Below are positions 3,187 through 9,484 of a stretch of 64,000 bases of DNA, one piece after another. How positions within the stretch are numbered: the stretch's first letter is position 1; each line of letters starts with the position of its first letter. Source of the DNA: Rhizobium sp. Root483D2 (lineage in GTDB: Bacteria; Pseudomonadota; Alphaproteobacteria; Rhizobiales; Rhizobiaceae); the NCBI RefSeq assembly GCF_001426685.1, contig NZ_LMFB01000044.1, positions 145,410-209,409 of the forward strand, written 5' to 3'. Under the pieces are notes generated by a model that worked only from the letters and a program-made list of their open reading frames with translations, did not search any database and was not told the DNA's origin. The position numbers were made by a program, and so were the translations under genes.

Positions 3187-4512
3187 TTATTGCGGCAGGT
3201 TGTCGCGCTCGACGGAGCCTGCCGCTTGCTCGATGCCGGTCGTGGTCTGCAGCGCCAGTTCCTGCTCGCCATCCATCTCGTAGATATCGTCGCGGAACTG
3301 CACGACGCCGTCGGTTGCAGCCCAGGCAGTGATATATTTGAAATAGACGGGCACTTCGACCGCAAGCTTGATCGGGGAGTTCTGCCCCGCGCGGATCGTT
3401 GCCTCGATCTGCTGGCGCGACCAGCCGGGCGTGTCGCGCAGCAGCCAGGTCGTCAGGTCGCGGACGTTCTGGACGCGCACGCAACCCGAGCTTTCGAACC
3501 GGGCGAGCTTGTTGAACAGGCCCTGTTGCGGCGTGTCGTGCATATATTCGTTGTTCGGATTGTGGAAGTTGATCTTCGTGGACGCCATGGCGTTGGTCTT
3601 GCCGGGGTCCTGGCGGAAGGTCAGGTTCGGTGCCTTCTCGGCATTCCAGTCGATCGTTTCAGGCGCAACCTCGTTGCCCTTGCCGTCGATGAGACGGATC
3701 GAATTCTTCTTCAGATATTCCGGATCCTTGCGCATCAAAGGAACGATGTCCTTTTCGACGATCGAACGCGGCGATGTCCAGTAGGGGTTGAGGATAACCT
3801 CATAGATCTTCGAGTTGATGATGTGCGTCTGGCGGCTGATCCGGCCGACAACGGCAGTGTGGCGCGTCGCAACGCGGCCATTTTCGACGGCTTCGATATA
3901 GGCGGCTGGAATATTGACCAGCACGTAGCGTTCGCCCAGATCACCCGACATCGACTGCAGGCGCACGATATTGGTATTCAGCTGGCCGAGCCGCACATCG
4001 GCAGCAATGTTCAGCGCCTTCACCGAATATTCGCCGAGCACGCCGTCGGACGGCAGGCCGTGACGGGCCTGGAAGCGCTTGACCGCGCCATCGACATAGC
4101 TGTCGAAGGAATTGGAAATACCGGCGGAACGCGGCAAATCGCCCGAAATGATCAACCGCTGGCGCAGGGCCTGTACGGAGGGATCGGAGACGCCCATTTC
4201 CAGGCGAACCGGCGAATTGACCTGCGGCCAGCCGCCGGCCGAGACGATCTGCTGATACTGGCCGATGGCGTTCTGGGTGTTGGCGAGCGTATCCATGCCG
4301 AAGATCGGTGTGTTGGACACGACGGCCGTGGCGGAGCGCGAAGCCTTGGCATCGAACTGGTCGTCCCAGGTGCCGCGGCGCGGCGCATTGATGATGTCGT
4401 CGAGCGCGTCCTGCGCCAAAGCGCCGCCGGCCCATGTTGCAGCGCCGAAAGCTGCTACCGAACCAAGGAAGCCGCGGCGCGAAAGTGCATCAATTCCGGT
4501 TTTCTTCGACAT
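3187..4512 (-). CDS. L,D-transpeptidase (YcbB/LdtD-like, Tat-exported)
   Basis: Forms 3-3 crosslinks in peptidoglycan or attaches proteins to it, in the periplasm. A twin-arginine signal (SRRGFLGS, residues 10-18, then a hydrophobic stretch ending in ALA about 33) directs export. A peptidoglycan-binding domain lies at about 136-170, then a YkuD catalytic domain at about 195-375 with H325 and the SSGCVRV motif (C344 nucleophile, R346). Length 441 aa fits the large YcbB class. The ATG at 4512 has AGGA five bases upstream, better than the ATG at 4524. The ldtR-type regulator lies just upstream; in Liberibacter and Sinorhizobium LdtR is reported to control an L,D-transpeptidase gene (ldtP), so this is probably its target. 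Confidence 0.9.
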   Translation of the reverse strand: MSKKTGIDALSRRGFLGSVAAFGAATWAGGALAQDALDDIINAPRRGTWDDQFDAKASRSATAVVSNTPIFGMDTLANTQNAIGQYQQIVSAGGWPQVNSPVRLEMGVSDPSVQALRQRLIISGDLPRSAGISNSFDSYVDGAVKRFQARHGLPSDGVLGEYSVKALNIAADVRLGQLNTNIVRLQSMSGDLGERYVLVNIPAAYIEAVENGRVATRHTAVVGRISRQTHIINSKIYEVILNPYWTSPRSIVEKDIVPLMRKDPEYLKKNSIRLIDGKGNEVAPETIDWNAEKAPNLTFRQDPGKTNAMASTKINFHNPNNEYMHDTPQQGLFNKLARFESSGCVRVQNVRDLTTWLLRDTPGWSRQQIEATIRAGQNSPIKLAVEVPVYFKYITAWAATDGVVQFRDDIYEMDGEQELALQTTTGIEQAAGSVERDNLPQ

Positions 4513-5060
4513 GTTTCCTACCATTCAAATGCTGCTACGCAAACCGCAGAGCTATCACGAACACGGTTAACAAACGTAAACTGTGACCTGCAGTTTCCTG
4601 CCCGCCGTTCACATTTGTGAGATGACGAACGCAAAGAGCGGCCAATCGCCGATCAGCGACAGAAGCAACGCAAAACCCGCATTCTCTGGCATCGTCGCTG
4701 TCATAGTAATATGGCCGATTCGTGTCACCGGCAGGCAGCAGCGGACTTCGCTGCATCGGCCGTTTGCCGGCGCGGCATTCGGGAGACACTGCCCGCCGCG
4801 CTCGCTTGACGTGAAACGGTGGCAAGACGCCATGCCGTTTTCTGTCGATAACAGATGGATAAAGGGAATATCGGGCTTAAAGGTGCTGCCGGATCGGCCG
4901 GAGGCCGCCAAGGGCAATGATGTGCAGCACCCCGGAGAGCAAAGCTTCAATCCGGGCGATGGCATCGGTTCATCAAGGTGGCGCCTGCCACCCTGTCCGC
5001 TTCTCGTCCTGCGGCCGCAAAGCCGCAGGAGAGCAGAAACAGCAGTCAGGAAGTCATTGC
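4513..5060. other. 548-bp intergenic region between L,D-transpeptidase and ldtR
   Basis: No convincing gene. It must contain the L,D-transpeptidase promoter and, if the regulator works as in relatives, an LdtR-binding site. Directly visible are a 9-bp stem TCCTGCGGC / GCCGCAGGA (5007-5015 / 5022-5030) without a T tract just after ldtR, and a small GGTGGC / GCCACC hairpin around 4976-4991. An open frame of about 190 codons on the plus strand (4583-5167) runs antisense into ldtR and looks spurious. Confidence 0.5.
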
Positions 5061-5573
5061 TTAGAGCTTGTACAACATGGTGTCGTTCCAGAAGCGGTCG
5101 AGGCGCTGCAGGAGCTTGTTCATCTGGCCGAACTCATCGGTGCCGATGCCGCCGACCTTCTGGATAGAGCCGATATGGCGTTCATAGAGCTTGGCAACCG
5201 TTTCGGCGATCTCCTGGCCCTCGTCGGTCAGGCTGATGCGGACCGAGCGGCGATCGACGCGCGAGCGCTGGTGATTGATGAAGCCGAGATCAACCAGCTT
5301 TTTAACATTGTAGGATACGTTGGAGCCGAGATAGTAACCGCGCGAACGCAGTTCACCGGCGGTCAGTTCCGAATTGCCGATGTTGAAGAGGAGAAGCGCC
5401 TGGACGGCGTTGACGTCGGAGCGGCCCGAGCGGTCGAATTCGTCCTTGACGACGTCGAGCAGGCGGCGGTGAAGACGCTCAACCAGGTGAAGGGATTCCA
5501 TGTAGAGCGAACGGATCGCATCTTCGTGGGGATCTTTGACGGTAACGGCCTGCGGTTTCATTTTGGTGTTCAT
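5061..5573 (-). CDS. ldtR: MarR-family winged-helix regulator LdtR
   Basis: A 170-aa MarR-type regulator with the winged helix at about residues 45-125 (recognition region around ELTAGELRSRGYYLGSNVSYNVKKL, wing around RSRVDRRSVRISLT). The whole protein matches the rhizobial/Liberibacter LdtR family, which controls cell-wall remodelling, osmotic tolerance and an L,D-transpeptidase. A GAGG ribosome-binding site lies about 8 bases before the first ATG. The predicted target gene is directly downstream on the same strand after a 548-bp gap, so the two are separate transcripts. Symbol assigned by family recognition and context. Confidence 0.85.
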   Translation of the reverse strand: MNTKMKPQAVTVKDPHEDAIRSLYMESLHLVERLHRRLLDVVKDEFDRSGRSDVNAVQALLLFNIGNSELTAGELRSRGYYLGSNVSYNVKKLVDLGFINHQRSRVDRRSVRISLTDEGQEIAETVAKLYERHIGSIQKVGGIGTDEFGQMNKLLQRLDRFWNDTMLYKL

Positions 5574-5704
5574 GATGACTGCCTCACTGTTTTGTTTGGC
5601 GGTGTATGTTTCTCTTCCCGCCTTGAGGTAGACACTATCGAATACGTATAAAATTCTACTTAAACACCAGCCTTAACAGCGCCTTACTATCCACAGCCTT
5701 TGTC

Positions 5705-6142
5705 TCAGGGTAAATCAATTCTTGCGGCCTTGGCCAGGCGGGCCCGCTGATGCAGGATCGCGGCCCGGAAAAGCACGAAGGTGACGGCCACTGCGGCATG
5801 CAGAATGACGATCAGCGGCTTGGCCCCGAAAATCTGCGGATAGACCTTGAACATGACGATTTCCGCGCCTGCTGCCACCACCCAGATCACCGGCCCCCAG
5901 GACACCAGAAGCCACAATCCCAGCGCCGCCACGGGATAAATGACGGCCAGCGCCGTCGCTGCCACCCGCCACGGAACCGGCAACAGATCAAACCGCCCGC
6001 CGCCGCCAAACGAAAAGCCGATCAGCATCGCCCAGTAGTTCAGCCCGAACCAGAAACAAGACACCGCCACCAGCCGCAGGAAAAATCCGAACAGTGTTTC
6101 GGTCAGCGACAATTTGGGGATTTTGACAGAATCAAGGGCCAT
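5705..6142 (-). CDS. DUF6163 family small membrane protein
   Basis: 145 aa with about four hydrophobic segments (roughly 18-45, 57-75, 80-98, 105-130), so an inner-membrane protein. It resembles a rhizobial family of unknown function (DUF6163, by recollection) that sits between ldtR and hemB in relatives. No catalytic motif is visible. It lies upstream of ldtR on the same strand with a 131-bp gap. Function unknown; proximity to ldtR suggests an envelope role but that is only inference. Confidence 0.75.
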   Translation of the reverse strand: MALDSVKIPKLSLTETLFGFFLRLVAVSCFWFGLNYWAMLIGFSFGGGGRFDLLPVPWRVAATALAVIYPVAALGLWLLVSWGPVIWVVAAGAEIVMFKVYPQIFGAKPLIVILHAAVAVTFVLFRAAILHQRARLAKAARIDLP

Positions 6143-6171
6143 GGCGGCGAAGATAGGCCGCAGGCAGGCGC

Positions 6172-6200
6172 TTTGCCAGACGGATATTTTTGAACTCTAT
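6172..6200 (+). promoter_or_regulatory. Candidate sigma-70 promoter for a small RNA
   Basis: TTTGCC (6172-6177) and CTCTAT (6195-6200) are spaced by 17 bases, a fair match to the alphaproteobacterial housekeeping promoter. It points rightwards in a region whose only upstream gene is on the other strand and it precedes a strong terminator at 6331. Confidence 0.35.
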
Positions 6201-6206
6201 GGCTGC

Positions 6207-6357
6207 CGTCCCTCTCTCAAAAAAGTCTGCGGCATTTAACAAAGTTAATTGTAAGAAGACCCTCATTGAGAAAAAAATCCCACACCCGGCCGCTTGGCAG
6301 TCTGACCGGGCACGCCAGAACTTGATATTTGGCCTCCCCCCGGGGGAGGCCTTTTTT
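6207..6357 (+). ncRNA. Candidate trans-encoded small RNA upstream of hemB
   Basis: A plus-strand terminator of textbook quality (6331-6357) has no plus-strand gene before it: the gene to the left is DUF6163, which is transcribed the other way. Between the possible promoter (6172-6200) and the terminator are an A-rich single-stranded-looking stretch (6270-6278) and a CCCGG / CCGGG stem (6285-6289 / 6306-6310). A ~150-nt transcript with a hairpin and a GC-rich U-tailed terminator matches the general architecture of Hfq-dependent alphaproteobacterial sRNAs. Exact ends, and membership of any named family, cannot be fixed by eye. Confidence 0.5.
6331..6357 (+). terminator. Strong rho-independent terminator (orphan)
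   Basis: GGCCTCCCCC and GGGGGAGGCC form a 10-bp GC-rich stem around one central C and are followed directly by six T residues (6352-6357). No plus-strand coding gene lies upstream, which is why a small RNA is proposed here. Confidence 0.85.
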
Positions 6358-6410
6358 GGCTGCTGAGCATCCCTACGTTCATAACCCTGGCACCCCAGAG
6401 GAAGCCGCAC

Positions 6411-6598
6411 ACTCCCTCTTCTCCCCAGCGGGGAGAAGGTGGCCCGCAGGGCCGGATGAGGGGGCCACACGCACATTCATAGAAAACATGAACCCACAAA
6501 ACTAAGGCAACTGCGCCCGAAGACTTCAAGTTTGTGCCGTACCGCCCCCTCATCCGCCCTTCGGGCACCTTCTCCCCGCTGGGGAGAAGAGGGAGCGT
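6411..6598. repeat. Inverted pair of rhizobial palindromic intergenic repeats (RIME-like)
   Basis: Two ~55-bp units face each other: 6411-6466 (CTCTTCTCCCCAGCGGGGAG, then AAGGTGGCCCGCAGGGCC, then GGATGAGGGGGC) and 6543-6598, which reads the same on the opposite strand with a few differences. Each unit has its own hairpins (CTCCCC/GGGGAG and GCCC/GGGC). The motif resembles the Rhizobium-specific intergenic mosaic elements known from many rhizobial genomes; the family name is from memory. The pair could fold into one large cruciform between the sRNA candidate and hemB. Confidence 0.75.
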
Positions 6599-6721
6599 TA
6601 TATCGTCCTCGAGGGCAGGGTAAACGGCAAGGATGAAACGCCGCACCCCAATTATTTTCCTTTGCGCATCGCCCATGATAAACCGCGACGAGATAGGACC
6701 AAGCTGACGAAAGACGATATC

Positions 6722-7735
6722 ATGACCGACAAGACCCATGCCGTGGATCTCATCACCGGCCACCGCCGCATGCGCCGCAACCGCAAGGCCGACTGGACCC
6801 GCCGGATGGTGCAAGAAAACCGGTTGACGGTGGATGATCTGATCTGGCCGATCTTTGTTGTTCCCGGCACGAATATCGTCGAGCCGATCGCGGCCATGCC
6901 CGGCGTCAACCGGATGAGCATCGACAAGGCCGTGGAGGCGGCAAAGCTGGCTGCCGATCTCGGCATCCCTGCCCTTGCGACCTTTCCGAATGTCGATATT
7001 TCGCTGCGCGACGATACCGGCTCCAACAGCCTTGCCGAGAACAACCTGATCAACGAGACGACGCGGGCCATCAAGAAGGCCGTGCCCGATATCGGCGTCA
7101 TCACCGATGTGGCGCTCGATCCCTTCACCAGCCATGGCCATGACGGCATCCTGCGCGACGGCGAAATCGTCAATGACGAGACGGTGGCGCAGATCGCCAT
7201 CGCCGCCGTGATGCAGGCCGATGCCGGCGCCGACATCATCGCACCGTCAGACATGATGGATGGCCGCATCGGCGCCATCCGCCGTGCGCTGGATGCGGCA
7301 GGCCACCAGAATGTCGGCATCATGGCCTATGCCACCAAGTTCGCCTCCGCCTTCTACGGCCCCTACCGCGAGGCGATCGGCACCAGCGGCCTGCTCAAGG
7401 GCGACAAGAAGACCTATTATATCGATCCCGCCAACGGCACCGAGGCGATGCGCGATGCGGCGCTCGATGTCGAGGAAGGTGCCGACATGCTGATGGTCAA
7501 GCCGGGCCTGCCGTATCTCGATATCTGCTGGCGGATGAAGGAAAGCTTCGGACTGCCGGTCTTTGCCTATCAGGTCTCCGGCGAATATGCGCAGATCAAG
7601 GCCGCTGCCGCCAATGGCTGGATCGACGGCGAACGCGTCATGCTCGAAACCCTGCTTGCCTTCAAGCGTGCCGGCTGCGACGGCATTCTCAGCTATTTCG
7701 CTGTCGATGTGGCCCGCATTCTCGCCAAGCGGTAA
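6722..7735 (+). CDS. hemB: Delta-aminolevulinic acid dehydratase (porphobilinogen synthase)
   Basis: Condenses two 5-aminolevulinate molecules into porphobilinogen, the second common step of haem, cobalamin and siroheme synthesis. Active-site lysines are K206 (YATKFASAF) and the Schiff-base K260 (MVKPGLPYLD). The metal region at 129-142 reads DVALDPFTSHGHDG; the cysteines of zinc enzymes are replaced by Ala/Asp, marking the Mg-dependent class known from Bradyrhizobium and Pseudomonas. The ATG at 6722 gives 337 aa, the normal length; an upstream ATG at 6662 would add 20 unusual residues. It is monocistronic, preceded by a ~580-bp region with repeats. Confidence 0.97.
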   Translation: MTDKTHAVDLITGHRRMRRNRKADWTRRMVQENRLTVDDLIWPIFVVPGTNIVEPIAAMPGVNRMSIDKAVEAAKLAADLGIPALATFPNVDISLRDDTGSNSLAENNLINETTRAIKKAVPDIGVITDVALDPFTSHGHDGILRDGEIVNDETVAQIAIAAVMQADAGADIIAPSDMMDGRIGAIRRALDAAGHQNVGIMAYATKFASAFYGPYREAIGTSGLLKGDKKTYYIDPANGTEAMRDAALDVEEGADMLMVKPGLPYLDICWRMKESFGLPVFAYQVSGEYAQIKAAAANGWIDGERVMLETLLAFKRAGCDGILSYFAVDVARILAKR

Positions 7736-7774
7736 CGCCGCTGCCACCGATCTGCTTAAAAACGTAGCGTGCCG

Positions 7775-9484
<1,710 letters not shown>

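Follow-up and report, generated by a model that had tools for sequence, protein, structure and literature searches.

The locus and its features

We describe here a conserved unit on the plus strand of the window, i.e. the whole stretch of 64,000 nucleotides that was analysed. The unit lies between a minus-strand gene for a DUF6163 protein and hemB. The features are as follows, in window coordinates.

3187-4524, minus strand: gene for a protein with an L,D-transpeptidase domain
5061-5573, minus strand: MarR-family regulator gene
5705-6142, minus strand: DUF6163 gene (Pfam PF19660)
5750-6193, plus strand: open reading frame of 147 aa
6143-6191, minus strand: likely promoter region of the DUF6163 gene, conserved beside its start codon and outside the RNA unit
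6235-6357, plus strand: conserved unit, consisting of an AT palindrome, a -35 box, a weak -10 box and then an RNA of ~74 nt
6235-6249, plus strand: AT-rich palindrome (T/A)TTAA-N5-TTAAT, directly 5' of the -35 box and touching it
6249-6254, plus strand: -35 box TTGTAA (family form TTGTNA, from column counts of 23 copies)
about 6273-6278, plus strand: inferred -10 box AAAAAT (family form AANNAT), after an 18-nt spacer in the window
6284-6357, plus strand: predicted small RNA of ~74 nt, with the 5' end taken from the -10 spacing and the 3' end from the terminator
6284-6311, plus strand: 5' hairpin of the RNA, stem 6284-6291/6304-6311, loop 6292-6303
6295-6302, plus strand: core of the hairpin loop, TGGCAGTC
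6312-6330, plus strand: linker of 19 nt, ACGCCAGAACTTGATATTT in the window
6331-6357, plus strand: intrinsic terminator from a terminator scan, 9-bp stem plus six T (conserved helix 2)
6409-6598: large inverted repeat with 36-nt arms that are 94% complementary, outside the RNA unit
6722-7735, plus strand: hemB, which starts ~365 nt downstream of the RNA in the window

The earlier note on this DNA had proposed an unannotated small RNA that ends at the terminator. This proposal is now well supported, since the RNA is conserved, its stems covary and it recurs in several neighbourhoods that are unrelated to one another. The stem that it placed at 6285-6310 is present, as CCCGG..CCGGG with an internal C.A mismatch, and the lowest-energy fold of the window sequence is a different hairpin. 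The terminator and its six T are also there, with 9 pairs (8 of them G-C) and a 3-nt loop by the scan, not the 10-bp stem described. It was also right that no plus-strand gene precedes the terminator, as the 147-aa plus-strand frame overlies the minus-strand DUF6163 gene.

A terminator on its own is weak evidence, because 8 terminator-like sites in 4000-9000 compare with 5.2 +/- 2.4 in shuffled sequences; the site at 6331-6357 has the most pairs. The folding z-scores, -1.70 for 6200-6362 and -1.73 for 6284-6357, are unremarkable alone. The beyond-chance evidence for an RNA at this locus is comparative, from alignments of related sequences, and does not come from single-sequence folds or the terminator.

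The inverted repeat at 6409-6598 belongs with the repeats that lie between rhizobial genes and is RIME-like. A query that included it gave 144 matches in the window's own genome, nearly all of them to the repeat part. The RNA unit was considered as a repeat of this kind and the idea was rejected, since the repeat sits outside the unit and the unit is single-copy in its own genome.

The probable promoter and RNA ends

A blastn search of 6143-6362 against 101 genomes returned two separate conserved blocks. The first, 6143-6191, adjoins the DUF6163 start codon and is conserved in eight loci from eight relatives; its minus strand reads CTGGCA-17-CTATCT before the ATG in the window, with close variants in the relatives' loci. 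The second, ~6237-6357, runs from the AT palindrome through the terminator, so that the suggested comparison of the regions upstream of hemB in relatives did uncover a conserved block (~6235-6357). The two blocks lie ~1.3 kb apart in the genomes G022 and G024, and in G022 they are separated by a minus-strand gene that is cyclase-like by eye.

These blocks bear directly on the promoter that had been suggested before. Its letters, TTTGCC at 6172-6177 and CTCTAT at 6195-6200 with 17 nt between them, are present. However, CTGGCA-17-CTATCT precedes the DUF6163 ATG on the minus strand, so that TTTGCC overlaps, on the other strand, what is probably the -35 box of that gene, and the RNA unit begins only at ~6235. 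We reject the suggested promoter.

Among 23 aligned copies of the unit, the left arm of the palindrome has T in 22, A in 21 and A in 19, and the right arm T in 19, T in 22, A in 14 and A in 22. The columns of the -35 box TTGTNA are T18, T21, G21, T18, N and A21. The spacer to the -10 box is 17 nt in 21 of the 23 copies, with the window, at 18 nt, among the exceptions; at the 17-nt register the AANNAT box has A at position 2 in 22/23 copies and T at position 6 in 20/23. The spacer between the boxes is also partly conserved. We infer that TTGTNA-17-AANNAT is the promoter of the RNA. Both boxes are weak by the E. coli consensus, and a promoter scan of the window region returned no promoter-like site. 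As the hairpin begins 5-7 nt past the -10 box in the copies counted by eye, the RNA would start at about its first base, near 6284, and a transcript of ~74 nt fits better than the ~150 nt of the earlier estimate.

The palindrome is a candidate regulator site or UP element, and the exact pattern TTAAN5TTAATTGTNA has a single site in the whole of the window's genome. The MarR-type gene at 5061-5573 presumably encodes LdtR, which was considered as a possible regulator acting at the palindrome. Compared by eye, the Liberibacter LdtR site given in PMC5481520 has no clear likeness to the palindrome.

Eight of the 28 copies (L065, L077, L081, L084, L085, L088, L089 and L090) carry a second box, GTNCGSTTYSRGAC, which precedes the unit by 25 or 26 nt; some of these eight are near-duplicates of each other. 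The box occurs only three more times in those loci, each time as the box of a neighbouring copy.

Structure and covariation

For our main alignment, A6, we took the 29 places found by the second of three covariance models (described below) and removed the five weakest and one duplicate from the same species, so that 23 remain. The alignment was fitted to the structure of the model, which favours pairing, and gave 93.2% of cells paired compared with 88.7% after shuffling (0/500 shuffles as high). There were 25 cells with double changes against 10.2 in shuffles, and the covariation score was 0.241 against 0.166; neither was reached in 500 shuffles. The number of pairs with double changes (8 against 4.9) was reached by 5/500 shuffles, and that of further pair types (22 against 19.6) by 27/500. 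When pairing partners were slid by 1-3 columns, at most 58% of cells remained paired.

Both helices contribute. In helix 1, the 5' hairpin, 90.5% of the cells are paired and 5 of 8 pairs have changed on both sides. The corresponding values for helix 2, the terminator, are 95.3% and 3 of 10, and the terminator stem, whose loss in relatives would have told against an RNA, is kept in most copies. A second alignment, A5, is free of any model, with seven rows that were picked for equal loop length. It has 97.6% of cells paired (10/500 shuffles as high) and a score reached by 6/500 shuffles; the result is mixed, as pairs with double changes (212/500) and further pair types (411/500) are not unusual. 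We conclude that the aligned sequences point to a conserved secondary structure with compensatory changes, the model-free result being mixed.

The loop behaves differently from its stem: the core UGGCAGUC is kept in most copies and hardly changes, while the stem varies. The linkers are alike in most copies at the hemB locus, and many other copies have GTGAGGAAAA-like linkers. A bistable switch between loop and linker, an idea that came from folds of relatives' sequences without their 5' end, was rejected: the mean duplex energy was -4.54 with a copy's own linker and -4.68 with the linkers of other copies, and shuffling gave p < 0.05 in only 1 of 23 rows.

Distribution across genomes

Three covariance models were built, R1 from six sequences, R2 from seven and R3 from 23, and the sequences used for building match by construction. 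R1 found 21 places, R2 29 (E <= 0.05) and R3 28 (E <= 0.01), in each case in 13 of the 26 genomes of the genus; the other 13 are without a copy. By R3 the copies per genome number 6, 5, 3, 3, 2 and 2, then one in each of seven genomes, including that of the window; the maximum is 6-7 across the models. Outside the genus, R3 was run on 40 genomes of the family, each from a different genus, and matched none. R1 matched 4 of 297 family genomes, all four from the window's genus; at least one further genome of that genus, without a match, is among those listed, so that about 292 represent other genera. In both outside searches the filters were stricter and the number of candidates scored was limited, by which weak copies were possibly missed. 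The small RNA had been expected to be widely conserved among the Alphaproteobacteria; we find it in one genus only.

A pattern scan with one genome per species (84,980 species) gave 14 stretches, 7 of them rhizobial and 7 from unrelated organisms. Read by eye, the seven non-rhizobial stretches lack the order of promoter, hairpin and terminator, and we dismiss them as chance. An origin in phages, plasmids or viruses was likewise rejected: blastn found no match in phages or plasmids, with nothing in the plasmid collection for the window copy and three other copies, and the pattern had no match in viral contigs, although short diverged copies could be missed and these collections may omit records near the window's genome.

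The dispersed copies adjoin genes that by eye are short-chain-dehydrogenase-like, porin-like, ligase-like and others, and some neighbourhoods away from hemB recur between species. For example, in L034/L075 (G008) and L042/L076 (G016) the copies are divergent from a porin-like gene (by eye). This position recalls that of MicF beside ompC. Near the copy in G004 there is a ROSE thermometer element (RF00435; L036 2897-2992, minus strand) with 72.7 bits, the gathering threshold being 45.

Relation to known RNAs

Rfam 15 covariance models had no match at gathering thresholds in the whole window; at looser thresholds, neither the 12 matches (E up to 10) in 6000-6720 nor the 3 matches (E up to 0.5) in the eight relatives' loci include an alphaproteobacterial sRNA family of those named below. 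The families of alphaproteobacterial sRNAs in Rfam are intergenic and short, with stem-loops and an intrinsic terminator, like the RNA described here. The models that the earlier note had named for checking include ar7, ar9, ar14, ar15, ar35 and ar45, and none of these six matches the window RNA or the relatives' loci.

Sibling sRNAs that are present in several copies and have a common conserved interaction site are well known, e.g. Qrr, OmrA/B and LhrC, which have other hosts and other sequences than the family here. The closest parallels by description are in Sinorhizobium, for which PMC3927594 describes multicopy families of trans-encoded sRNAs (SmelA003, SmelB126 and SmelA075/SmelA099). 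In that text SmelB126 has a conserved terminator and SmelA003 a conserved loop motif, and these two, like the family here, have several diverged copies per genome. The loop motifs of other Sinorhizobium families given there, GGAUGUA, UCCGCCGCAUCU and UCCUCG, differ from the loop of our RNA.

We recognised no paper as reporting this RNA, in a literature search with thin coverage of subscription papers. As a text query the loop letters CUUGGCAGUC retrieved, from what is openly searchable, only a mouse miRNA paper, and the word 'hemB' is absent from the main text of PMC2573895 and PMC2245857.

Proposed function

We propose, with a probability of roughly 0.7, that the unit at 6235-6357 belongs to a family, restricted to the genus, of sibling genes for trans-acting sRNAs, which act through the hairpin loop and share a promoter element. 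The sequence comparisons indicate a conserved sRNA gene that is probably transcribed, and the family is a new one of a known kind. RNA polymerase would start at ~6284 from a promoter whose -35 box touches the AT palindrome, and the copies are probably under one common regulator or UP element. The product would be an RNA of ~74 nt with a 5' stem-loop, ending at the intrinsic terminator. Target RNAs would probably be contacted by the near-invariant loop UGGCAGUC, which sits on a freely varying stem, and Hfq would probably bind at the U tail. If its members are transcribed, the family is one of sRNAs that the Rfam release searched does not contain, and it has multiplied and partly decayed within one rhizobial genus. 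It would be a clean case for studying how young sRNA genes spread while keeping a common switch and contact loop, and annotators could use the covariance model to mark the 28-29 places.

Targets were sought as perfect complements of the loop (the 10-mer GACTGCCAAG) in seven genomes, a narrow search in which we found no credible target. The complement occurs at 100 places, 5 of which are the RNAs themselves; 78 of the remaining 95 were examined by script, with the 16 of G006 and one of G007 outside this set. In each of the seven genomes the perfect complement is rarer than the reversed pattern that served as control. Five of the six genomes examined share an intergenic site that lies 155 nt upstream of leuS. 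This site was rejected as a target after 22 of 26 leuS regions had been aligned: it lies upstream of a TTGAC box, is also present in G020, G001, G019 and G011, which have no copy of the RNA, and is altered in the carriers G002, G016, G008, G021 and G004. Among the other sites that two or three genomes have in common, six loci were inspected, and in all six the site falls within a long open frame on one strand or the other. For L155 and L162, which are 99.8% alike, the frame belongs to a gene of the opposite strand that is LysR-like by eye; they match no Rfam family.

Instead of mRNAs, the partner of the RNA, once it is made, could be a protein for which it serves as decoy or scaffold. A loop that stays constant while its stem varies would suit a protein site too, and the failure to find an mRNA target is in keeping with this; yet no known protein motif was identified and the target search covered perfect 10-mers only. 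We regard this alternative as unlikely, though it is the best of the rivals.

That the unit is a mobile or repetitive DNA element of the MITE kind, whose palindromes mimic an RNA and whose transcript has no function, appears slightly less probable still. Some genomes do have several dispersed copies, a real repeat adjoins the unit in the window, and two copies are decayed, L086 (G008:C25:76846-76945) without the 5' hairpin and L087 (G008:C169:175308-175388) without linker and terminator. Against this reading, the stems covary while the loop and the promoter register persist, most copies have diverged from each other, the unit is not flanked by an inverted repeat within 6150-6720 of the window, and the window's genome has one copy.

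Possible anti-sibling copies

The family of sibling sRNAs may have a further layer. Two weak copies in G024, L088 (G024:C73:491-622) and L089 (G024:C86:482-613), with R3 E-values of 1.7e-4 and 0.0019, have a hairpin segment GCUGCCACU that complements the loop UGGCAGUC of other copies. Several points speak against reading these as anti-siblings. The complementarity was noticed post hoc, L088 and L089 are alike and perhaps represent one event, and self-pairing of some family loops is nearly as strong (-4.6 to -11.3 kcal/mol). Moreover, only CUGCCAC is unpaired in the predicted fold of L088, and L089 is predicted to fold otherwise. The segment may act as the partner in a kissing or sponge contact, but it may also reflect an inverted hairpin or be due to chance. 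It is a doubtful but conceivable reading that siblings and anti-siblings form a network, with a common promoter switch and loop, in which 6-7-bp kissing contacts provide sponge-like self-regulation besides mRNA targets. The 7-bp duplex of GCUGCCACU with the loop has an energy of -11.2 kcal/mol. According to which loop is taken as partner, 7-49 of 5000 random 9-mers reach this value, as do 2-21 of 2000 shuffles.

The hemB neighbourhood

The small RNA had been described as lying upstream of hemB; this position is confirmed, and no link to hemB beyond position was found. All 26 genomes have hemB, and the RNA is in its neighbourhood in 9 (G002 is counted through its DUF6163 and cyclase-like neighbours, as its hemB is on another contig). 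In the other 17 hemB loci, searched with filters off, there was nothing credible (best E 0.61); the sequence covered upstream of hemB was 1500 bases at most, and contig ends limited it to 592, 314 and 126 bases in G008, G021 and G004. A cyclase-like gene (by eye) lies upstream on the minus strand in six genomes (G002, G006, G007, G010, G013 and G022). In four genomes (G007, G013, G022 and G024) the RNA is separated from hemB by a minus-strand gene, and in G101, of the same species as the window, by an IS5-like transposase gene (by eye; L092 259-1284, minus strand).

Hairpins serving as a cis leader or attenuator that controls transcription into hemB would agree with the window, where hemB follows ~365 nt downstream on the same strand, but we consider a leader or riboswitch role highly improbable because a gene intervenes between the RNA and hemB in five relatives, i.e. 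the position is not constant by synteny, while copies elsewhere do not adjoin hemB and most genomes with hemB have no RNA near it. The hemB-locus copy of the proposed sRNA family would thus be an independent gene, without cis control of hemB.

In a tree of hemB, in which 10 of 23 inner branches are weak, the hemB-locus copy is found in 8 of 9 members of one supported clade, plus G002; G020 is without a credible copy at hemB though it falls inside this clade. Four genomes of another clade, G008, G016, G021 and G004, carry their copies elsewhere only.
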